From contig JALFPC010000023.1 of assembly GCA_022782305.1 (NCBI GenBank), positions 1 to 35,985 on the forward strand: a DNA stretch of 35,985 nucleotides, read 5' to 3'. Numbering within the stretch: the first letter of the stretch is position 1; every line of letters begins with the position of its first letter. Source of the stretch: Prevotella sp. Lineage in GTDB: Bacteria > Bacteroidota > Bacteroidia > Bacteroidales > Bacteroidaceae. The notes below the pieces were generated by a model. That model was not told where the DNA came from and did no database searches. It was given only the letters and a program-made list of their open reading frames with translations. Shown in pieces: positions 197 to 22,864 of this stretch. The translations under genes were made by a program, and so were the position numbers.

Positions 197-403
197 CTAA
201 CAACAGTTGTTATTACATCACAAGAATAACTGTTCTTGCATCACAAGAATAACTGTTCTTGCATCACAAGAATAACTGTTCTTGCATCACAAGAATAACG
301 GTTCTTGTACCACAAGAATAACTGTTCTTGCATCACAAGAATAACTGTTCTTGCATCACAAGAATAACTGTTCTTGTATCCTAAGAATAACTGTTATTAT
401 ATC
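197..403. repeat. Nine-unit array of 23-bp palindromic tandem repeats
   Basis: Nine head-to-tail 23-bp units run without spacers. The seven inner units contain CAAGAATAACTGTTCTTG, a hairpin with arms CAAGAA/TTCTTG. The first unit (TAACAACAGTTGTTA core) and last unit (AATAACTGTTATT core) differ in sequence but are themselves perfect palindromes around one central base. Inner units are almost identical; one has CGG for CTG and a GTACC junction. No ORF or cas gene is associated and there are no unique spacers, so this is not CRISPR. It could be a protein-binding array, an RNA multi-hairpin or a minisatellite. Confidence 0.9.
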
Positions 404-1179: not shown

Positions 1180-1210
1180 TTGCACAATCCAAATAAATGC
1201 CTTACATTTG
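1180..1210 (+). promoter_or_regulatory. Promoter of the fetAB-like operon
   Basis: TTG at 1180-1182 and TACATTTG at 1203-1210 are separated by 20 bases, matching the Bacteroidota -33/-7 arrangement. The predicted transcript start, near 1217, lies downstream of the ORF track's ATG at 1197, which argues for the ATG at 1254. Confidence 0.65.
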
Positions 1211-1253
1211 CAGTTCAGGTGGTCAAAAGTATTGTGACCACAATGATAATAAG

Positions 1254-1904
1254 ATGATAGAAGTAAAAGACGCAACGATATGCAAGGGCGGAGAGCAACT
1301 CTTTGCCCACCTCTCATTCGTGGTAAACGATGGAGAGATGGTGGCGGTAACCGGTACGTCGGGCAGCGGAAAGACTACACTGGTGAAAGCCCTCATGGGA
1401 TTTGACAAACTGAAAACAGGACATATAAGCATTGACGGCGAACTGCTCACTCCAGCCTCGGCAGTAGAGTTCAGACGATTTATGTCGTATGTGCCCCAAG
1501 ACCTGGTGCTGACAGCAGAGACAGTAGAGGAGATGATGGCCATGCCCTTTGCACTAAAAGCAAACATGGCAGCCCGACGCTCACGAAAAACAATAGAAGA
1601 GGAATGGGCACAACTGGCACTGCCTGGAGCCATCTATGACAAGCGGGTGAGTGAACTCAGCGGAGGCGAAAAGCAGAGAGTGCTGCTCTCTATATGCAAA
1701 CTGCTGAAGAAACCAGTGGTGATATGCGACGAACCCACATCGGCTCTGGATGAAGACACCACAACACTTGTAATACATTATCTGCGCTCGATGGCTGATA
1801 ACGGGGCATCGGTGGTGGTGGTAACACACGACCATACACTGGCAGAAAAATGCGACAAGGTGATAGATATTACACATTATAATAATAATGATCAATCAAG
1901 ATAA
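1254..1904 (+). CDS. fetA: ABC transporter ATP-binding protein, FetA/YbbL type
   Basis: The product is a 216-residue ATPase that would power the adjacent FetB-like permease at the inner membrane. All ABC motifs are visible: Walker A GTSGSGKTT (about residues 34-42), Q-loop YVPQD, signature LSGGEKQRV, Walker B VVICDEPTSALDE and H-loop VVTHD. The start at 1254 is preferred over the track's 1197 because the promoter -7 box lies at 1203-1210 and IEVKDA is the normal first strand of such ATPases. The stop overlaps the fetB start by one base (TAATG), so the two are translationally coupled. In E. coli FetAB is reported to export iron and help resist peroxide; that role here is inferred from family and pairing. 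Substrate is not proven. Confidence 0.85.
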   Translation: MIEVKDATICKGGEQLFAHLSFVVNDGEMVAVTGTSGSGKTTLVKALMGFDKLKTGHISIDGELLTPASAVEFRRFMSYVPQDLVLTAETVEEMMAMPFALKANMAARRSRKTIEEEWAQLALPGAIYDKRVSELSGGEKQRVLLSICKLLKKPVVICDEPTSALDEDTTTLVIHYLRSMADNGASVVVVTHDHTLAEKCDKVIDITHYNNNDQSR

Positions 1905-2689
1905 TGACAACAGATATTACTACCATAGGCATGATTGTGGGCCTGATGCTCATGGCCGTGCCACTGTATGCCTTTCATAGACTGGGAGCCAAAATGATAA
2001 CAAGCACCATGACAGCCACAGCGCGCATGGTAGTGCAACTCTTTCTGATAGGACTATATCTGCGCTATCTCTTTGAATATAACAGTTCGCTGGTCAATAT
2101 TCTGTGGGTAGGGGTGATGGTGATAGTGGCTGCCTTTACGGCAGCACACCGCACTGGCATTAAACGCCAACTCATCGTGATGCCACTATGCGTGGGACTC
2201 ATGGCTTCTGCCATGGCCGTGGGAATGTATTTCCTTGTGCTCGTGCTCAGACTGGCTCATCCCTTTGATGCACGCTATTTTGTGCCCATCATGGGAATAC
2301 TCATGGGAAACATGCTGGGAGTGAACGTGATGGCGCTAAATACCTATTACGACAGCATGCACCGCGAACAATCGCTCTATTACTATCTGCTGGGCAATGG
2401 CGCCACACATTTTGAAGCCGTGAGACCCTTCGTGTCGAGAGCCATAGAGAAAGCATTTGCACCATGCGTGGCCAACATGGCCGTGATGGGAATAGTATCG
2501 CTGCCAGGCACGATGATAGGTCAACTGCTGGGAGGGTCGCTGCCAGGCATAGCCATCAAATATCAGATCATGATAATAGTGATAACCTTCACTGCATCTA
2601 TGCTCTCGCTGGTCATCACACTGATAATAGCAGACCGACGATCCTTCGACTCTTTCGGCAGAATTATAGACGTGATGAGACGAAAATGA
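1904..2689 (+). CDS. fetB: FetB/YbbM (UPF0014) family ABC permease
   Basis: This 261-residue integral membrane protein has about seven hydrophobic segments, starting with GMIVGLMLMAVPLYAFHRLG. The family is recognised from the TARMVVQLFLIGLYL segment near the N-terminus, GILMGNMLGVNVMALN in the middle, and LPGTMIGQLLGGSLP, which fits the UPF0014 coupling region. Length matches the family. It starts within the stop codon of fetA (TAATG). The pair probably forms a metal exporter, with iron the best-studied substrate for the E. coli homologue. No fused domain is present, and the stop overlaps a short palindrome (ATGACTAATTGTCAT, 2686-2700). Confidence 0.85.
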   Translation: MTTDITTIGMIVGLMLMAVPLYAFHRLGAKMITSTMTATARMVVQLFLIGLYLRYLFEYNSSLVNILWVGVMVIVAAFTAAHRTGIKRQLIVMPLCVGLMASAMAVGMYFLVLVLRLAHPFDARYFVPIMGILMGNMLGVNVMALNTYYDSMHREQSLYYYLLGNGATHFEAVRPFVSRAIEKAFAPCVANMAVMGIVSLPGTMIGQLLGGSLPGIAIKYQIMIIVITFTASMLSLVITLIIADRRSFDSFGRIIDVMRRK

Positions 2690-3137: not shown

Positions 3138-3145
3138 TATATTTG
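3138..3145 (+). promoter_or_regulatory. -7 element for the pectin-locus regulator
   Basis: TATATTTG matches TAnnTTTG and lies 22 bases before the ATG at 3167. A possible -33 TTG at 3112-3114 is 23 bases upstream, slightly long. Confidence 0.5.
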
Positions 3146-3166: not shown

Positions 3167-5614
3167 ATGCATAAGATGTGGACCCTGATGATGATGATGA
3201 CAGTCATGCTTGTTGGCATGGCGCATGACACTATGGGGGCACAAAAGAAAAATGAAGACCATGGACAATGGCTGATGACCGAATATGACGATCATGGAGG
3301 CATGTCGCAATGGCATATCACCAAAATGCTGCAAGATAAAAACGGGTATATGTGGTTTGCAAGTTGGAACGGACTCAATAGATATGACGGGTATGAGTTC
3401 GCAACGTTTAAATCCACTCCCGGCGACGGAACAAACGTGGCATCAGACAGAATAAGAAACATAGTGATGGGCAAACATGATGACATCTTTTGCTATATAG
3501 ACCAGGAGATATGGCGATTTTCTACATTAAACCATACATTCAGCAAACCATCAGACAACGACTCTATAATCTATTACCACATGCTAACCAACGACCCAGA
3601 GGTGTGGCCCGAAAAAGATACTACAATATGCGGATATCACATTGAAAAGGTTAGACAGGTGATGGACGACAGACAAGGAAACAAATGGGTGATGGGGAGA
3701 TATGGAGTGAAAAAACTGGTGAAACAAAAAACGCCCTTCGCCACCATCGAAGCCGTGCCAAAGGATATCGTGAGGGCGCTCTTTGCAGATAACAAGGGGA
3801 GAATATGGATAGCATCCAGAAATACTGCCACTGTGACCATTGTGGACAAAAAACTAAAGCTGATAGGGTATCTCGGCAGCAACGGACGATTGCACTCAAC
3901 TCCACAGAACTTCGCACCAATCTATTCTATCATGCAACAACGAAATGGCAACATCTGGCTATGCTCAAAGCCACACGGACTGATCATGCTCAAAGAAACG
4001 ACAGATGGGGTGTTTGACATCAAAACCATGACCAAAGGTAGTAGACATGATATCAGACGGGGATTATGTATTAACAGTAATGATGTGTATGACATAAAAG
4101 AAGATAGGCACGGACGACTGTGGGTGGGCACTCTCGGAGGAGGTATCAATATGATGGTGCCAAAGGGAAATAATTACAGAGTGTATAACAAAGACAACGC
4201 ATATAAAAGTTATCCTTCTGCAGCTGTCAACGTGAGAAAGGTGATGATAGTGGGCGACAGCATGCTCATGGCTACTACCACGGGAGGACTCATAGCGGCA
4301 GACATACGGAAGAATAATATCGAATTCTGCCTGCATACACGACAGGGAACACGACAAAACAGCCTCTCATGTAATGCCACCATGGACATGGTGATGGATA
4401 GTAAAGGCAGACTCTTCGTGTCTACAGAGAGCGGAGGAATAAACATGCTGGTAACAAGAAACCTCAACAACAAAAGGTATGAATTCAAGCATTTCACTAC
4501 AGCACAGGGCATGGGCTCGGATGTGGTGATGGCCATGGCTCGCTCGGGTAACCAACTTATGGTGCAGAGCCTAAACCAACTGATCAGACTGGATGCCGAC
4601 AAGGGTAGGACCGACAACTATGGAGGACGATTCTTTGCCATGCCCATACGATTCTCAGATGCTGCACCATTATGCTTGGAAGACAGACGATGGATGCTGA
4701 CTCTCGAAACAGGTGTGATGGTGATGCCTGAAGATGAATTAGACAATAGAACATACTCGCCGCAAATTGCCATCACATATATCGAAATGCCAGGAGCACA
4801 GCGAACATTCTCGATTAGTCATAGCGACACCATACTACTAAATGATGAACAAAGGGATGTGACCATAGGATTTGCAGCTCTCGACTTTGCTGACAATAGC
4901 AACATAAAATATTCTACCAGACTGACCGAATTCGGAGAAGGTGAGTGGGCTCCATACAGCCATGCACGATCGGTGAGCCTCGTTAACCTCACTCCTGGCA
5001 CCTATAGGTTGGATATACGCTCCACTAATGCCGACGGACTGACCGTAGACAATACCAAATCTGTATATATCGTGGTGACGCCTACATTCTGGGAAACAAC
5101 ACTGGCAAAATGCATTTACCTGATGATGATGATGGCCATAATATATGCTGTTACCTATACCTTATTCTATATACGAACGCTCAAAAGGCAAAGAAAGGAA
5201 AACTATGACAAGTATATGAAACTGGTCAACGGAGGAGACGACAACGGACATGACGATGGCCAAATGACACAAACGGGCATGAGCGACGAAGATAGACAGT
5301 TTATGAAAAGACTAACCGATTTTGTGACCAATAATTTATCAAACAGCAATGCCTCTGTAGATGATATGGCTGCTGCCACAGCCACTTCGCGCTCAAGCCT
5401 AAACAGAAAAACAAAAAACCTGCTCGGAGTGACTCCTGCTGACTTCATGAAAGAGGCACGTATGAAAAGAGCATGCCAAATGCTCATGACCACCACTGAC
5501 AATATCAACGATATAGCATACGCATGCGGATTTGCTGATGCTAAGTATTTCTCTAAATGTTTCAAGGCATCATGGGGCATGTCGCCAAGCGAATATCGCA
5601 CAGCAGAGAAATAA
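3167..5614 (+). CDS. Membrane-spanning propeller regulator with AraC domain, lacking kinase and receiver
   Basis: This 815-residue protein has a signal-like N-terminus (LMMMMTVMLVGMAHDTMGA). A periplasmic two-component-regulator propeller follows at about residues 35-540, with repeats such as DKNGYMWFASWNGLNRYDG, DNKGRIWIAS and DRHGRLWVGTLGGGIN. Next come a Y_Y_Y domain (about 560-635, ending LTPGTYRLDIRSTNADG) and one transmembrane helix (about 645-668). The cytoplasmic C-terminus carries an AraC/HTH_18 domain (about 710-812; DINDIAYACGFADAKYFSKCFK type signature). Classical HTCS proteins of about 1300 residues place a histidine kinase and receiver between the membrane helix and the HTH; here only about 40 linker residues remain and no H-box or ATP-binding motif is present. 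It probably senses pectin fragments and binds DNA while tethered to the membrane. The gene directly downstream encodes a pectinase, its likely target. Confidence 0.88.
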   Translation: MHKMWTLMMMMTVMLVGMAHDTMGAQKKNEDHGQWLMTEYDDHGGMSQWHITKMLQDKNGYMWFASWNGLNRYDGYEFATFKSTPGDGTNVASDRIRNIVMGKHDDIFCYIDQEIWRFSTLNHTFSKPSDNDSIIYYHMLTNDPEVWPEKDTTICGYHIEKVRQVMDDRQGNKWVMGRYGVKKLVKQKTPFATIEAVPKDIVRALFADNKGRIWIASRNTATVTIVDKKLKLIGYLGSNGRLHSTPQNFAPIYSIMQQRNGNIWLCSKPHGLIMLKETTDGVFDIKTMTKGSRHDIRRGLCINSNDVYDIKEDRHGRLWVGTLGGGINMMVPKGNNYRVYNKDNAYKSYPSAAVNVRKVMIVGDSMLMATTTGGLIAADIRKNNIEFCLHTRQGTRQNSLSCNATMDMVMDSKGRLFVSTESGGINMLVTRNLNNKRYEFKHFTTAQGMGSDVVMAMARSGNQLMVQSLNQLIRLDADKGRTDNYGGRFFAMPIRFSDAAPLCLEDRRWMLTLETGVMVMPEDELDNRTYSPQIAITYIEMPGAQRTFSISHSDTILLNDEQRDVTIGFAALDFADNSNIKYSTRLTEFGEGEWAPYSHARSVSLVNLTPGTYRLDIRSTNADGLTVDNTKSVYIVVTPTFWETTLAKCIYLMMMMAIIYAVTYTLFYIRTLKRQRKENYDKYMKLVNGGDDNGHDDGQMTQTGMSDEDRQFMKRLTDFVTNNLSNSNASVDDMAAATATSRSSLNRKTKNLLGVTPADFMKEARMKRACQMLMTTTDNINDIAYACGFADAKYFSKCFKASWGMSPSEYRTAEK

Positions 5615-5644: not shown

Positions 5645-5670
5645 ATAGGCATATATCGCCGTATGCCTAT
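5645..5670. other. Perfect 9-bp inverted repeat between regulator and pectinase
   Basis: ATAGGCATA and TATGCCTAT are separated by an 8-base loop. There is no T tract on the plus strand, so it is either weak termination or a binding site. A second small palindrome, GGTTTGAACC, lies at 5702-5711, upstream of the -7 box at 5765, and is a candidate operator. Confidence 0.4.
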
Positions 5671-5764
5671 GAAAAAAGGGGGATTTTCTGTTGCAACGGG
5701 TGGTTTGAACCGTTTTTACACCGCCTTTGGAGCTATTGTAACCCATGAAAACAGTATTTTGCAG

Positions 5765-5772
5765 TATCTTTG
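5765..5772 (+). promoter_or_regulatory. -7 element for the CE12-CE8 pectinase gene
   Basis: TATCTTTG is an exact match, 35 bases before the ATG at 5807. No well-spaced -33 is visible, which is common for activator-dependent promoters; AraC-type activation is inferred. Confidence 0.6.
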
Positions 5773-5806
5773 CGCAAAATTATTTATTTACCTAAAACTG
5801 TTTTTT

Positions 5807-8800
5807 ATGTACAACAAACTTCTTACACTTTTCAGAGTGATGGTATTGGCATCTATGGTGATGGCTGTACCTATGGAGGCAAAGAAGAAAGTCAACACCA
5901 TCGGCGACTCTACTATGGCAAACTATCCTACGGATGGGTCTACAGACAAAAGAGGATGGGCGCAGATGCTGCAGCAATTCTTCAATACCGACAATGTAAC
6001 GGTAAACAACCGAGGCAAGTCGGGAGCCTCAAGCAAATCTTTCTATCGTGAGTCTGCATATTGGCCCACTATGGTCACAGGCGGAAGCGACGCTATGCAG
6101 GCTGGAGATTTCCTAATTATCCAATTTGCACACAACGATGAAAAAAATGGTGGGGCTGATGGAGACGTGGTAAAACAATACTACAACAGCATTGGAGATG
6201 CAGCAACAGCATCTGCAACAGACTATAGAGGTACCACAGCATCGGGCACTTTTAAAGAATATATACGCAAGTATATCAATGAGGCTAAGGCCATGGGAGT
6301 AAAACCTATAGTGGTGGCTCCTATCTGCAGAAAATATTTTGCCACAGGAGGACAGAGCATTAGACGAAATGGTAAACATGACCTGGGTGACAATTTTACA
6401 AAATGCGACGGAACATCTCTCTCAACAGGTAATAAAGTGCCTGAGAGCGATAATACCTATGACTATGTGGAGCAGGCAAAGGCTGTGGCATACGAATATG
6501 ACGATGTGCCATTCATAGACCTCACTGCTCTGACAGAACAACTATATCTGAAATATGGTGAGGCGTATTGCACTCTGAACCTATTCTGCAACGACGACTC
6601 TACACACCCCTCAGCTCTCGGCGCTACACTCATAGCACGAGAGTTTGCACAGCAACTCAAACTGCAGGCTACTACAGAAACAGACCCAAAAAGAAAGCAA
6701 ATACTCGAAGAACTGGCACAGGATGTGGTGGTATCGGCAGAGATCACATTTAATCCTACATCTGGAGATATGGGAAAGGCGTATATGGGACAGAGCATTG
6801 TGAAAGAGTATAACGTGTCGGCTTTCGGAGTGGACAACGGCGCAAAAATGAATATCAGCGTTGACGGGGGATTTCTCATCTCTAACGACAAGGTTAACTA
6901 CAACAACTCACTCACACTGACTGCAGACGGCAACAATATAATATCGTCATTGTATGTAAAGGTAAACCTCAACGCTCCAGGAAAAGTAAACGGTACTCTC
7001 ACTGCTACAGTGGGACAGCAAACATCTACTCTGCAACTCACCGCAGAGGCCATAAACTTGAACGGTGGCACCGAAACGAATGCTGTGTGGCCTCTGACAG
7101 AATCAACTAAACCAAATGACAACGAATTGCTTACTCTGACAGAACAAACGCTATCTGAACTTTCTGTAAAACAGTATGCAAACATTGGTACTGACAATCC
7201 ACGAAAAATGCAACTGCTCACCACAACTACGGGAGAATGGGGAGTGGGAGAGATTGACGAGGTCTCTACAAGATATGCACAGTTTAAAATTACATGCCCA
7301 GCTGACTGCAATTTCGCTATCGACAAAATTACTTATTACATCTCGGGAAGGGGAGGATCGGCTGTTAGCTATCATGCTTACTATAGCGTAAACAGCGATT
7401 TCGCAAACCCTGTGCTCATCGACGAAAAAGTGAACATGGCTAAGGATGCTCCCACAATAATCGAATGCAATATTGCAGAACAAATAGAAGAGGGACAGAG
7501 CTTCTACGTGAGATTATATCCATGGTATAACGGACAAACAACCGCGGCTACAGGAAAATATTTGTGTATTTCTGATATGAACATTCACGGCAGCATAACA
7601 AAAGCCGGGGGACAGAGCATTGACATTAATGGAAGCGTGGCTTATCCGCTCGTAGACGCACAACCATCATTCGAACCTGAGGAGATGGCTGTAGGATTTG
7701 TGGGCAAAACTATGGACCACGGACAACTCTTGACCATAGGACAAAACGGGGGACTGACATGGAGCGGAACTACTGACAATGGTAAGGTGCAAACCATGGT
7801 GAGCAATGTAACTGGAGCATCACTGCCTACATCGGCTGTTGACGGAAACACTATAACATTTACACTCACACCTGAAGACGGCCTGGTGTTCTTGCCAAGC
7901 AAAGTGACTTTCCAGGCTGCAAGATATGGCACTGATGGTGGAAATATAACAGCATCGGTGGAAGCAAACGGTATGGCTGAAATATGCAATAATGAGGGCG
8001 TCAACCGCTCGGGTAAGGGACTGGCTCTCAAAACGATATCTTCAGAAATCAATGGCGTGTCGGCAGATGCTGCCAATCCTCTCAAACTGAAGATATCTGT
8101 GCTCGGACTGGGCAACAACAAAAGCGTGGGACTCAATGATATCGTGGTGGAAGGTAGACTGATGGGACAACTGCAGCAAACAGTGAAATATTCGCTCACT
8201 ACCGTGGTGACACCAGCAGGAGCTGGTTCTGTGCAGGCAGACCCCGAGATGGACGCATATAAAGAGGGTTCTATCGTAAATCTTAAAGCAACACGAAATT
8301 TCGGATATAAGTTTAAGGAATGGCAGATAGACGGCAACAAAGTGTCTACTAACGAATCATTCTCTGTAAAGATGGATGGCAACAAAATTCTGACTGCCGT
8401 GTTTGACGAAATACCAGTATATACCGTCACTGCTAAGTGTACTAATGATGCTGAGCGCACCATGGGCAACGTAACTCTAACACCAAACGAACATGATGGT
8501 AAGTATGAGGCTGGTACTACTGTGACTGCAGTGGCACAGGAGTCGAAGATTCTTAAATTCATGCAGTGGACTGATAAACACGAGAATGCGGGTACAGCGG
8601 CCACACGAACATTCACTGTGAATGAAGATATGCAACTGGTGGCTGACTATGAATTGCAGGATTTCGTGGCGGTGTTTGACGCATCCATGACTCAGGCATA
8701 CGCATATAACAATGCTGCCAATTACCCATTCACCGCTGACATCGCATGGGACGAACAAAGAAATGCTACTGCATCGGTGGTGAGAACTGACAACGGTGCT

Positions 8801-11086
8801 CTGCTCTATAGCCAAAACACTGGCACACCCGTGGTGAGAAACAGACAGGGGGTGGTGATCTCTGCAATCAACGGATTATATCAAAACGGATATGATACAA
8901 GGGAGATTGCATGGCAGTATCAATTCTCAACTAATGGGTTCACTAATGTGACCATCTCTGCTGATATGGCTGCTAAAAATGCTGCCGCAAAGAAATACAT
9001 AGCTAAATATTCTTTGGATGGAATTAATTTCTCTGATATTCCTGGTGCCGAATGGACAGTGACTGCTAATGTGCTGAACCCCATATCTATAGCTCTGCCA
9101 CAGAACGCAGACAACCAACCAATGGTTTACGTAAGGATTATGGGACAGGGGGATGATCTTCTGTCAACAGCGTATTCATTCGACAATACATTCGACGGCA
9201 TGGCATATACCTCACATTCTGAATCGGGAGTGGGAAACATGTATGTTATCGGAGTGGCTGAAGTGGCTGAGGATAACATAGCACCAGTGGTAATCTCTAC
9301 GCTACCTGCTAATGGGGATAATGGAGTGAGTGCCGCAGGAAGAATAACCATATCTTTCGATGAGAGAATACAGGCCGGAAATACTCAAAATCCTGCTACT
9401 CTCGGCGATAAATCTCTGCAACCAATATGGAACACTCGTAGCGTAAGCTTCAACTATAACTCGCTCAAATACGGACAGACTTATTCTTTCTCAATGCCAG
9501 AGGCTTATGTGAAAGATAGATCGGGAAACTCTTCGGCACCCGTCAATTTCTCATTCACCGTGATGGAGAAACAGAAACCTCAGCAGAGAATCTTTGATGC
9601 CATAGTAGACAAAAATCTTAAACTCGAACAAGGACAAAGCATTCCCGCTACTGAAAATATGCCAAAGCAGTATAGGTTTATTCAAGATGCTATTGATGAT
9701 GCTCCTGCTAACACTTCGCAGCCATACCTTATCTTTATTAAAGAGGGATACTATAACGATCCTAATACTACGTTCAATTCGGGATATGGCACAAGATTTA
9801 CTACATCGCAAACAGGTAGCGGAGCACCTACAGAACGTATTCCTGGTGGAATGAATGATTATGACGATTGCAGACTCGTGTATGTAAACAAACCGAATAT
9901 TCATCTCATCGGACAGGCCACAGACAAGGTGACTATTGCAACAGACAGACTGGACGGCGCAAGCAGCGACCCAAATAGAGTATGGTATCATGTGGACGCT
10001 GGTGCTGCTCTCGAGGTGCAATCTGCCGCTACTAACTTCTTTATGCAGGGAGTTACCATAGATAATGAAAACTGGACCATCAAACGCATGGAAGGACCAC
10101 AGGCCTTGTGTATGAATATCACATCTGATAAAGCCGTGTTTGATAATATCAGAGCTCGCTCATACCAAGATACATACAAAAGTAATGGTACTTACAACCG
10201 ACAGTTCTTCTACAACTCTATAATTGAGGGAGGCGTGGACTTTATATATGGTTCCGGAGATGTGTGGTTTGAAAACTGTACTCTCGACATCAATAGAAAG
10301 AAGGGGGGATTTATCGTGGCTCCTAACCATCCTGCAGACACAAGATGGGGATATGTGTTTAATAATACTACTATCACTACTTCCTATTCTACTATTCCAG
10401 AGGATTATCAAGTGTATCTCGGAAGACCATGGCACGACAACCCAATAACAGTGTTCCTGCATACCAAAATGGAGGTGAAACCATACGACGGATATTGGTA
10501 CCCAACGATGGGAGGACTGCCAAAACTGTGGGCTGTCTATGATATCGTTGACCGAAACGGATATGCTATGTCTGAATACTCCATAGAGGATTATTACTAT
10601 ACAGATAACGGAAATACTATCACTGGAAAAGCTAAAAACTATCTAACAGACGAAGAGGCCGCTATGTATACCGTGGCTAACGTGATGGCTGGAGATGGCT
10701 CCAATTCTGAAAAGGGAACATGGAATCCTCTCGAAGTGGTGGAGAAAACGGAAGTGCCTATGCTGACCATGCAAAACAATATGGTGACATGGCAGGCTGA
10801 CGACTATGCTATCTGTTACGTGGTTACCGTAAACGGAAAGGTAGAGGCTTTCACCACTACAACGGAATATTCTGCCAAACCTGGTGATAAAGTGACAGTG
10901 CAGTCGGTAAATGCTCATGGAGCACTGTCGGATATGTCGGCTCCTGTAAACATCACTACAGGTATACTCTCTGTGGATAACAATGATGACGATAATGGCA
11001 AGACATATAATATTATGGGTATGCCGGTAAGCTCAATGAAGCACGGAGTGTTTATACGAAACGGAAAAAAGGTGGTGGTGAAATAA
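5807..11086 (+). CDS. Secreted bifunctional pectin esterase (CE12-like SGNH esterase plus CE8 pectin methylesterase)
   Basis: This 1759-residue exported protein starts at 5807, not 5663, because the promoter lies at 5765 and MYNKLLTLFRVMVLASMVMA is the signal peptide. Residues about 25-285 form an SGNH hydrolase of rhamnogalacturonan acetylesterase type (GDSTMA block, NRGKSGASS, FAHND, DSTHPSALGA with the Asp-His pair). Ig-like segments follow. Two InlB-like repeats lie near 795-950 (EWQIDGNKVSTNESFSVKMDG) and a Big_5-type domain at about 1158-1250. Residues 1262-1580 are a pectin methylesterase with SYQDTY, GGVDFIYGSGD and LGRPW, the catalytic Asp and Arg motifs. The last 25 residues (MGMPVSS...IRNGKKVVVK) resemble a Bacteroidota C-terminal tail. 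It should remove acetyl and methyl esters from pectin, preparing it for the PL1 and PL9 lyases encoded nearby. Confidence 0.9.
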   Translation: MYNKLLTLFRVMVLASMVMAVPMEAKKKVNTIGDSTMANYPTDGSTDKRGWAQMLQQFFNTDNVTVNNRGKSGASSKSFYRESAYWPTMVTGGSDAMQAGDFLIIQFAHNDEKNGGADGDVVKQYYNSIGDAATASATDYRGTTASGTFKEYIRKYINEAKAMGVKPIVVAPICRKYFATGGQSIRRNGKHDLGDNFTKCDGTSLSTGNKVPESDNTYDYVEQAKAVAYEYDDVPFIDLTALTEQLYLKYGEAYCTLNLFCNDDSTHPSALGATLIAREFAQQLKLQATTETDPKRKQILEELAQDVVVSAEITFNPTSGDMGKAYMGQSIVKEYNVSAFGVDNGAKMNISVDGGFLISNDKVNYNNSLTLTADGNNIISSLYVKVNLNAPGKVNGTLTATVGQQTSTLQLTAEAINLNGGTETNAVWPLTESTKPNDNELLTLTEQTLSELSVKQYANIGTDNPRKMQLLTTTTGEWGVGEIDEVSTRYAQFKITCPADCNFAIDKITYYISGRGGSAVSYHAYYSVNSDFANPVLIDEKVNMAKDAPTIIECNIAEQIEEGQSFYVRLYPWYNGQTTAATGKYLCISDMNIHGSITKAGGQSIDINGSVAYPLVDAQPSFEPEEMAVGFVGKTMDHGQLLTIGQNGGLTWSGTTDNGKVQTMVSNVTGASLPTSAVDGNTITFTLTPEDGLVFLPSKVTFQAARYGTDGGNITASVEANGMAEICNNEGVNRSGKGLALKTISSEINGVSADAANPLKLKISVLGLGNNKSVGLNDIVVEGRLMGQLQQTVKYSLTTVVTPAGAGSVQADPEMDAYKEGSIVNLKATRNFGYKFKEWQIDGNKVSTNESFSVKMDGNKILTAVFDEIPVYTVTAKCTNDAERTMGNVTLTPNEHDGKYEAGTTVTAVAQESKILKFMQWTDKHENAGTAATRTFTVNEDMQLVADYELQDFVAVFDASMTQAYAYNNAANYPFTADIAWDEQRNATASVVRTDNGALLYSQNTGTPVVRNRQGVVISAINGLYQNGYDTREIAWQYQFSTNGFTNVTISADMAAKNAAAKKYIAKYSLDGINFSDIPGAEWTVTANVLNPISIALPQNADNQPMVYVRIMGQGDDLLSTAYSFDNTFDGMAYTSHSESGVGNMYVIGVAEVAEDNIAPVVISTLPANGDNGVSAAGRITISFDERIQAGNTQNPATLGDKSLQPIWNTRSVSFNYNSLKYGQTYSFSMPEAYVKDRSGNSSAPVNFSFTVMEKQKPQQRIFDAIVDKNLKLEQGQSIPATENMPKQYRFIQDAIDDAPANTSQPYLIFIKEGYYNDPNTTFNSGYGTRFTTSQTGSGAPTERIPGGMNDYDDCRLVYVNKPNIHLIGQATDKVTIATDRLDGASSDPNRVWYHVDAGAALEVQSAATNFFMQGVTIDNENWTIKRMEGPQALCMNITSDKAVFDNIRARSYQDTYKSNGTYNRQFFYNSIIEGGVDFIYGSGDVWFENCTLDINRKKGGFIVAPNHPADTRWGYVFNNTTITTSYSTIPEDYQVYLGRPWHDNPITVFLHTKMEVKPYDGYWYPTMGGLPKLWAVYDIVDRNGYAMSEYSIEDYYYTDNGNTITGKAKNYLTDEEAAMYTVANVMAGDGSNSEKGTWNPLEVVEKTEVPMLTMQNNMVTWQADDYAICYVVTVNGKVEAFTTTTEYSAKPGDKVTVQSVNAHGALSDMSAPVNITTGILSVDNNDDDNGKTYNIMGMPVSSMKHGVFIRNGKKVVVK

Positions 11087-20410: not shown

Positions 20411-22864
20411 ATGAAACAAATCAAAAACCTATTACTATGCATGATAACCTCGCTGTTGGCTATGGGGGCCAAGGCTGAAACGGTTACATACAATTTTGAA
20501 AATGGCCTGCCATCTGCATGGGCATGCTCTGGAGTGACCATAAAAAAAGATAACGGCAGCAATAGGGCTGCTATGTCGTCGGGAGCCACAATGGTAACGG
20601 ATGCCATGCCTAACCTCAAATTGGTTGAATATAAGCATCGAGGCAGCGGCAATGGCAAAAAACTTGTTGTGGAGAAATCAATAGATGGTGGGGCCACATG
20701 GACATCAATAGGCGAAACCACTGTGTCGTCGGCATCTGCATACGGAACGGCAAGCCATACCATAGGAGAAAACTCTACACCTGCCACCATCATAAGGTTT
20801 ACATGTATGAGTGCAACTATTTATTTGGACGACATCATTTTTACCACGGGTAGTGGTGACGATGTTGAACCCACAGAACCCACAGAACCTACCATCACCG
20901 CAGGTGCAGCCATGATCAGTTTCGGCAAGGTGAAAGTGGGGGAGGAGCGCACTAGAATAATCCCCCTGGCAGCCGCATGCCTGCAACCTGATGCGGGAGT
21001 GCTATTCATAGAATCATCATCTCCGACAGTAACCATAAGCACTGATGGGCAGACTTTTGACTCCAGTGTGCAGTTGACATATAGCGAGGGAATGGTTTCG
21101 GGAGCAGAACTTCATGTGAGATTTGCTCCTGCCGATTATATGCAATACGATGCACAGGTGCAGATATCTGGCGGAGCAGCCAAGCATACCATAACCATAA
21201 AGGGAGAAGGTTCCACAGTGTCGTGTAATGAGTATTATATCGCTCCCGACGGAAACGATGCCACTGGCGATGGAACCATATTGCATCCATGGATGAATCT
21301 TCAGAAGGTGGTAGACATTGCACAGCCAGGAGATGTGATCATCTGCCGAGGCGGACGGTATCTTTTCACCTCACGTGATAGCAGCAACAAACTAACAGTG
21401 AGAATAAAACGCTCTGGAACTGCCTCAGACCCCATCACCATACGAAACTATGATGGTGAGCAACCCATCTTCGACTTTGAACAGCAACTCATCGATTGCA
21501 ACCGCGACCGCAGTAAAGTGGGAGATAGGGGCATACATCTCACGGGCAACTATTGGGTGTTGTATGGCTTGCATATCACCCATGCCGCCGACAATGGAAT
21601 AAAACTCGAGGGTAGCCACAACAGAATAGAGAGATGCGAGTTCAGCTATAATCTCGACACGGGAATACAATTGGGCTTTGGACACAACTTCTCTGACTCG
21701 GGATTCGGTTCGCAAAACGATGGGTCTTATTGCGCATATAATGATATCATCGACTGCGACAGCCATCATAACTGCGATTTCGATACTAACTATGGAAGCG
21801 ATGCAGATGGGTTTGCCTGCAAAATGCACAATGGAAAGGGAAACAGGTTTATACGTTGCCGAGCATGGCGCAACAGTGATGATGCATGGGATTTGTTTGA
21901 AACAGATTTCAGTGTGACCCTCATAGAATGTTGGGCATGGGAGTCGGGCAAATCATCTGACCATACCTGGGTGTATGACTATTTTGACAAAGGACCAAAT
22001 TTCTCTGGAAATGGCAACGGAATCAAGTTGGGGGGCAACGGCACTGGTGGTTCGTCAAAGGGTGTGCACTATGCCTACAATTGTGTGGCCTTTGGAAACA
22101 ATGTGTCGGGTTCTGTCAAGGGTTTCGACTGCAATAATCATAAGGGAGGTCATGTGTTGGTTGGATGTCTCGGTTTCGACAATGGATATGATTTCATGTT
22201 TGAGTCTGGTGGAGGAGCCAATTCTGAGTTCTATAATAATGTATGCTTTGGTCGTCAGGAGATTCTTGTAGGTACTGAGAGCAACAATGGATTCCTTGGT
22301 AATGTGCAGGCTGGCAAGACATTCTGCAATAATGTGGTCAAGGGATTCAATCGTGCAGACTATGAAAGTCTTTCGGAGGAAGATGCCATGGCACCCAGAG
22401 GTATAGATGGTTCCATGCCTGCCAGATTCGCTCGCCTCAAATATGGTTCGGCACTTATAGATAAGGGATTGGACAAACCAGTGCCATACACTGATGAGTT
22501 TCCCTTCCTCTTGCAACCCATCATGGGGGCAGCCCGAGACCTGGGGCCATACGAGTATCTTTCTGATGCATCTTCAGCCCTACAGGCTATACTAAACCAC
22601 AAGTCTGTCAACTCCTTCCGCATTACTAATGGACGCACCTGTGGGGAGCGCATTGCTGTGGTGAGCAGTGATACAAGGTCAGACATCATCATCTGCCTCT
22701 ATAATGTAGGAGGGCAGTATATGGGCCAAATAGCCTCTGTCAAGGCAGAGAAAGGAGTTGACTATTACCTGCCTCTTGATATGTCGTCGCTCAAGCCGGG
22801 AGTGTATGTCTGTAAGGCTACTATTGCTGACCAGTCTTATTCTGCCAAGTTATCAATAAGATAA
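20411..22864 (+). CDS. Secreted pectate lyase, PL9 family, with C-terminal sorting-type tail
   Basis: This is an 817-residue secreted protein. Signal peptide (NLLLCMITSLLAMGAKA), a beta-sandwich (about 23-150), a PTEPTEPT linker, and an HYDIN/ASPM-like domain (about 163-268) precede the right-handed beta-helix (about 273-700; YYIAPDGNDATGDGT). Three features match the described PL9 calcium site and base. DADGF is followed 24 residues later by SDDAWD, which fits the Asp209, Asp233, Asp234 and Asp237 spacing of Pel9A. The candidate catalytic Lys lies in NGNGIKLGG. The last 80 residues (VGGQYMGQI...LKPGVYVCKATI...KLSIR) look like a type IX secretion (Por) tail. It should attack polygalacturonate, completing the esterase-PL1-PL9 series. 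It has a separate upstream region from PL1 because a terminator intervenes. Confidence 0.88.
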   Translation: MKQIKNLLLCMITSLLAMGAKAETVTYNFENGLPSAWACSGVTIKKDNGSNRAAMSSGATMVTDAMPNLKLVEYKHRGSGNGKKLVVEKSIDGGATWTSIGETTVSSASAYGTASHTIGENSTPATIIRFTCMSATIYLDDIIFTTGSGDDVEPTEPTEPTITAGAAMISFGKVKVGEERTRIIPLAAACLQPDAGVLFIESSSPTVTISTDGQTFDSSVQLTYSEGMVSGAELHVRFAPADYMQYDAQVQISGGAAKHTITIKGEGSTVSCNEYYIAPDGNDATGDGTILHPWMNLQKVVDIAQPGDVIICRGGRYLFTSRDSSNKLTVRIKRSGTASDPITIRNYDGEQPIFDFEQQLIDCNRDRSKVGDRGIHLTGNYWVLYGLHITHAADNGIKLEGSHNRIERCEFSYNLDTGIQLGFGHNFSDSGFGSQNDGSYCAYNDIIDCDSHHNCDFDTNYGSDADGFACKMHNGKGNRFIRCRAWRNSDDAWDLFETDFSVTLIECWAWESGKSSDHTWVYDYFDKGPNFSGNGNGIKLGGNGTGGSSKGVHYAYNCVAFGNNVSGSVKGFDCNNHKGGHVLVGCLGFDNGYDFMFESGGGANSEFYNNVCFGRQEILVGTESNNGFLGNVQAGKTFCNNVVKGFNRADYESLSEEDAMAPRGIDGSMPARFARLKYGSALIDKGLDKPVPYTDEFPFLLQPIMGAARDLGPYEYLSDASSALQAILNHKSVNSFRITNGRTCGERIAVVSSDTRSDIIICLYNVGGQYMGQIASVKAEKGVDYYLPLDMSSLKPGVYVCKATIADQSYSAKLSIR

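Follow-up and report, generated by a model that had tools for sequence, protein, structure and literature searches.

A kinase-less, receiver-less HTCS-type membrane regulator and its predicted operator beside a CE12-CE8 gene in Prevotella sp.

The regulator described here is encoded in a stretch of 35,985 nucleotides of Prevotella sp. DNA (contig JALFPC010000023.1), referred to below as the window. The protein is probably a membrane-tethered one-component transcription activator of the adjacent CE12-CE8 gene, derived from an HTCS by deletion of the histidine kinase (HK) and the receiver (REC). It would sense a pectin-derived oligosaccharide and act through pairing of its AraC domains on a 21/22-bp repeat.

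The regulator protein, its family and its descent

The regulator gene and the parts of its product are as follows.

3167..5614, + strand: regulator ORF of 815 aa, frame intact, encoding a kinase-less, receiver-less HTCS-type membrane regulator
3167..3241, + strand: N-terminal signal peptide (residues 1-25), a hydrophobic N-terminus ending GA/AQ, present also in the family alignment
3284..4756, + strand: periplasmic propeller-type repeats (residues 40-530), about ten Reg_prop-like units, a predicted fold
4883..5077, + strand: Y_Y_Y domain (residues 573-637), from Pfam
5111..5167, + strand: single transmembrane (TM) helix (residues 649-667), from hydropathy and AF2
5168..5236, + strand: conserved basic juxtamembrane stalk helix with the family motif YIRxxKRQxxExxxxYLxLL, like the REC alpha5/linker of HTCSs
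5366..5602, + strand: C-terminal AraC-type DNA-binding domain (DBD), HTH_18 (residues 734-812), from Pfam

The protein matches Reg_prop (E-value 7e-21), Y_Y_Y (5e-7) and HTH_18 (2e-23), and its hydropathy profile contains one TM helix with a peak of 1.92 at residues 649-667. From this helix it is about 40 residues to the first helix of the DBD and 67 residues to the start of the HTH_18 profile; the earlier note, which had placed one membrane helix and about 40 residues before the AraC domain, was right in substance. In the AF2 model of residues 638-815 (mean pLDDT 63), a single helix (641-687) spans the membrane and the stalk. It is best supported over its first 30-40 residues, and after it come a linker modelled as disordered and the helices of the DBD. 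The full-length model, made from the single sequence, is poor (pLDDT 35) and leaves the propeller a putative fold.

No Pfam match to HisKA, HATPase_c or Response_reg was found in the 815 residues even at E<=1, nor was there a Pfam match to a winged-helix domain. When the whole assembly was searched in six frames, no HATPase_c was found near the regulator gene, which means that no frameshifted kinase is hidden there; the sole match on the contig, at 25 kb, is the Hsp90 gene. Neither at the protein level nor in six frames did profile searching for kinase motifs detect a divergent or frameshifted kinase. The Pfam result, the six-frame HATPase_c search and 33 relatives all agree with the initial description of a sensor that has neither histidine kinase nor receiver.

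These relatives belong to a family that is common in the genus. Matches to the regulator at E<1e-60 occur in 49 of 150 sampled congeners (about a third), mostly as frames of 770-880 aa, with a minority of longer ones. Thirty-three members align over their full length, with invariant residues in the sensor, the Y_Y_Y domain and the DBD, and in the domain scan all 33 share one set of four Pfam families, with a kinase or receiver in none (0/33). Full-length relatives are rare beyond the genus: they turn up in a few further genera of the same family and, among 247 sampled genomes of the order, in two from other families. The next-closest matches are the ectodomains of ordinary HTCSs of 1400-1500 aa, through the sensor part only. 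When genome contigs were searched with the single regulator protein, only an unrelated AraC protein was matched, and the same search of viral contigs returned nothing. As proteins of the same architecture are found in congeners, the regulator gene is not broken; the regulator is a member of a family of conserved architecture, not a damaged HTCS gene. An artefact of assembly or annotation, or a pseudogene made by one deletion in this strain, might be entertained for an assembly that is 82% complete and in 132 contigs. This reading has a negligible probability and is ruled out by the conserved family, in which intact frames of the same architecture recur in independent genomes. A description of such a kinase-less clade was not found in the literature; most subscription journals lay outside the scope of that search, which makes this weak evidence.

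The comparison with full-length HTCSs for deletion points, proposed in the earlier note, gave two results. Against one HTCS (L096), residue 37 of the regulator aligns to residue 27 and residues 162-655 align to 396-890, so that approximately 240 ectodomain residues are absent between the aligned blocks; the repeat region is shorter by this amount than the double propeller of HTCSs. The regulator has about ten repeat units and full HTCSs have 12-13 detected ones, a rough count, since family members were the training set of the profile. A deletion running from just after the TM helix into REC alpha5 is also suggested. The stalk and DBD match PDB 12aw, with the stalk aligned to its REC-linker segment. 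In all seven HTCSs, the best stalk match lies just before the HTH, with weak scores. A profile comparison, of modest significance, fits the first 14 stalk residues to the HTCS segment that follows the TM helix and the rest to REC alpha5 and the linker.

In HTCSs, the DBD touches the receiver through an aspartate in alpha6 and a lysine in alpha8, which are conserved in 95% and 96% of Bacteroides HTCSs, respectively (PMC11253607). Both are kept in the regulator, as D709, just upstream of HTH_18, and K748. Among the short kinase-less proteins, 38 of 47 have the aspartate and 43 of 47 the lysine, compared with two and one of the nine other AraC domains of the genome. Since the receiver surface is gone, the two residues look inherited from an HTCS, or they may serve a second role. 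The sensor match, the match of stalk and DBD to PDB 12aw and the retained contact residues together suggest HTCS ancestry by internal deletion.

Predicted operator and target gene

The following elements surround the regulator gene.

3138..3145, + strand: TAnnTTTG element (Bacteroidota -7 type) of the regulator's own promoter, read from TATATTTG by consensus match only
5647..5668, + strand: inverted repeat AGGCATA-TATCGCCG-TATGCCT, a possible terminator of the regulator gene, by direct reading
5704..5745, + strand: predicted operator upstream of the CE12-CE8 gene, direct repeat TTTGAACCGTTTTTACACCG / TTTGGAGCTATTGTAACCCA with a 22-bp period
5765..5772, + strand: TAnnTTTG element in the promoter of the CE12-CE8 gene, 19 bp downstream of the predicted operator
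5807..11086, + strand: predicted target, a secreted CE12 (GDSL)-CE8 (pectinesterase) fusion, from Pfam; homologues occupy this position in relatives

The CE12-CE8 reading frame is listed as 5663-11086, and its probable start is Met49 of that frame. A CE12 and/or CE8 homologue is present in the fetched neighbourhood of 28 of the 44 main-clade loci, and in 20 of them it is the first gene after the regulator, in the same orientation. Other main-clade regulators precede SusC/SusD PULs. There are only three pectinesterase-family genes in the regulator's own genome.

Across the clade, the predicted operator is a 21/22-bp direct repeat of approximately TTTGACGCnnTTTTCACCC that ends 18-20 bp before a TAnnTTTG element. 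This element occurs in 33 of 40 downstream intergenic regions, with 4.5 expected from shuffles. When these regions are anchored on it, self-identity is highest at 22 bp (48%), and helical echoes show up at 11 and 33. Half-sites of one locus resemble each other more than those of different loci, to a degree reached in 9 of 2000 permutations. When the window was left out of training, the resulting matrix placed its best site in these 36 kb at 5704-5745, with a score of 26.9 against 11.9 for the next. In a scan of 1.13 Mb of loci, a score of at least 15 together with a correctly spaced promoter was found in 21 of the 24 training loci. Thirteen non-training loci were also matched, all of the main clade, a few of which nearly duplicate training loci or one another. 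Among the thirteen are L058, whose arrangement is divergent, long kinase-less forms from this clade (L062, L108 and L120) and L134, from another family, where CE12 and CE8 follow as the next two genes. The same scan found no operator with promoter in the HTCS loci, in the loci of HTCSs that lack the CA domain or in five shuffled passes. A clear site and/or pectin esterase genes are absent at some main-clade loci, among them L034, L036, L055, L059 and L094. In its own genome, the strict operator pattern occurs once, at the CE12-CE8 promoter, and it yielded no further regulon members there.

The repeat at 5704-5745 is thus likely to be the operator of the regulator clade. By its distribution among these sequences, the operator is tied to the clade; it says nothing on the sign of regulation or on inducibility. 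Studies have reported that the operators of HTCSs are direct repeats averaging 21 bp (PMC3878776), and their output logic would therefore be preserved in the kinase-less regulator. The proposal that the adjacent CE12-CE8 gene is the target has gained strong support from conserved synteny and the conserved operator, and this gene is probably switched on by the regulator.

Several other features were recorded nearby. At four other loci (L049, L042, L032 and L033), inverted operator-like half-sites form a hairpin just after the regulator gene, which may be a terminator and an extra operator. A Pel9A-like beta-helix protein, possibly a pectate lyase, is encoded at window positions 20411-22864, 15 kb from the regulator, and no operator site was found at its gene in the window scan. 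A FetA/FetB-like ABC pair (window 1197-2689, same strand) ends 477 bp upstream of the regulator and gives no sign of membership in the system. An intergenic 23-bp tandem repeat of 8.2 copies (TGTTCTTGCATCACAAGAATAAC) occupies window positions 208-395.

Signalling without a kinase: proposed mechanism and alternatives

Judged by its domains, phosphotransfer within the regulator is impossible, as the phosphodonor and the acceptor are both absent. This supports the earlier suggestion that signalling proceeds without it. The periplasmic propeller/Y_Y_Y sensor would bind a pectin-derived oligosaccharide, a ligand suggested by the target genes. The ligand-driven change may then travel through the one TM helix and the short, continuous helical stalk, and the AraC-type domains would pair on the 21/22-bp direct repeat, a site predicted from comparative genomics. 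This site abuts the -33 region of the TAnnTTTG promoter, and from its position and the synteny it is predicted that the CE12-CE8 gene would be turned on. The simplest switch would be one in which the ligand dimerises or re-orients the Y_Y_Y domains. It has been shown that REC inhibits the HTCS DBD, and that the DBD binds without phosphorylation once the contact is disrupted (PMC11253607). Gao et al. argued that the HK dimer would pair the DBDs of an HTCS, which makes their suppression by REC necessary (PMC11253607). In the regulator, the HK dimer and the inhibiting REC have disappeared together, and this would free a simple monomer-to-dimer or scissor switch.

This same loss could be read differently. 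With REC missing, the DBD might always be on and the sensor a relic, since disruption of the contact frees the DBD in HTCSs (PMC11253607). Such a constitutive activator is quite unlikely: an ectodomain of about 600 residues is conserved genus-wide with invariant residues and no decay, and occupancy of the tandem site by the DBD probably requires pairing. Another reading is regulated intramembrane proteolysis, in which ligand binding would lead to cleavage close to the TM helix and release the AraC domain to the operator. A single TM helix and a flexible linker ahead of the DBD suit this route, which fits all of the sequence data; however, the 21/22-bp site would still require paired DBDs, and the conserved stalk residues Y683, L684 and L686 suggest mechanical coupling. 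Proteolysis is considered unlikely.

Two further readings are very unlikely. The regulator could act in trans with a partner, either a full HTCS or a separate kinase, e.g., as a heterodimer through the Y_Y_Y domain or the TM helix, and the genome does hold two HTCSs with HATPase_c as well as other kinases. However, the regulator has neither receiver nor HisKA to accept the phosphate, and the operator is found only at genes of its own clade and not at HTCS loci. Alternatively, it could repress the esterase gene until a ligand lifts the repression. The second half-site does overlap the expected -33 region (18-20 bp to TAnnTTTG), but the repeat leaves the -7 element and the start uncovered. It is also general knowledge that HTCS and AraC-type proteins bound to same-face direct repeats beside a -35/-33 element are usually activators.

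The preferred reading, a tethered activator of the CE12-CE8 gene, has partial counterparts among known systems. ToxR and CadC carry an N-terminal cytoplasmic winged helix. The earlier comparison with them holds for the working principle and fails for the build, as their DNA-binding domain is different and lies at the opposite end of the protein; in the regulator, an AraC domain forms the C-terminus and the sensor derives from HTCSs. Like the transmembrane transcription regulators (TTRs), which include the ToxR/CadC type, it unites a TM helix and a DNA-binding domain in one polypeptide without a phosphorelay (PMC10269533). Y_Y_Y is among the common TTR domains (Demey et al. 2023, PMC10269533), and that survey stresses hybrid TTRs that retain two-component domains. 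SusR of Bacteroides thetaiotaomicron is likewise a membrane-anchored, kinase-less, glycan-responsive activator of polysaccharide genes. Its DBD resembles no known transcription factor and the tandem sites predicted for it lie 67 or 77 bp from each other (PMC3878776), whereas the regulator has HTH_18 and a 21/22-bp repeat. With the Bacteroides HTCSs of the BT4663 and BT4124 type, the regulator shares the Reg_prop and Y_Y_Y sensor, the TM helix, an HTH_18 domain with the REC-contact D/K, a tandem operator of about 21 bp (predicted here) and adjoining glycan-degrading genes. It differs in the absence of HisKA, HATPase_c and REC and in the shorter ectodomain.

Graded kinase loss and its meaning for the genus

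Intermediate forms are present as well. Five HTCSs (L066, from the same genome, L100, L101, L121 and L122) retain HisKA and the receiver without HATPase_c, and in all five the H-box reads HKLRTPL instead of the usual HELRTPL. The group also holds long forms of about 985-1127 aa with neither kinase nor receiver. On the sensor tree, the short clade and four long forms are well supported together, and other kinase-less forms lie among the CA-less HTCSs. A single origin of all kinase-less forms was rejected on this tree (AU test, p=1.5e-7, from a quick tree search and with the tested group chosen after the tree was seen).

Seven Y_Y_Y proteins exceed the cut-off in the regulator's own genome (82% complete), and HATPase_c is present in two. 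Four HTCS-like proteins without HATPase_c lie on other contigs of this genome. L066 (contig C83) is the HTCS at 6666-10502 with HK for HE in its H-box. On contig C14, L071 (5250-8357) encodes a 1035-aa Reg_prop/Y_Y_Y/AraC protein with no CA domain and no receiver, whose HisKA-like remnant TMSDELRQPF seemingly has an aspartate in place of the phosphoacceptor histidine. L068 (contig C113, 4288-8031) is HTCS-like with a receiver only and no kinase, and L133 (contig C87, 283-2742) is an HTCS-like protein of 819 aa with neither; by sequence similarity, both fall outside the regulator's clade.

On these sequences, kinase loss has happened more than once. A wider proposal is put forward tentatively, at a little short of an even chance: that the genus dismantles its HTCS sensors repeatedly and stepwise, with HATPase_c lost along with the change of HE to HK, then HisKA and then the receiver. 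Most of these sensors (five of seven here) would then signal without a complete kinase, as a kinase-independent class of PUL regulators that keeps HTCS-type operators.

HTCSs are a major class of glycan sensors in gut Bacteroidota. The prevailing view is that their output needs phosphorylation, which lifts the inhibition of the DBD by REC. A clade that keeps the sensor, the DBD and the operator without kinase or receiver raises the question of whether the sensor can drive the DBD mechanically. HTCS calls made by sensor similarity overestimate the phosphorelays of the genus, and the regulator offers a minimal, predicted switch for pectin sensing that consists of one gene and has a defined target promoter.
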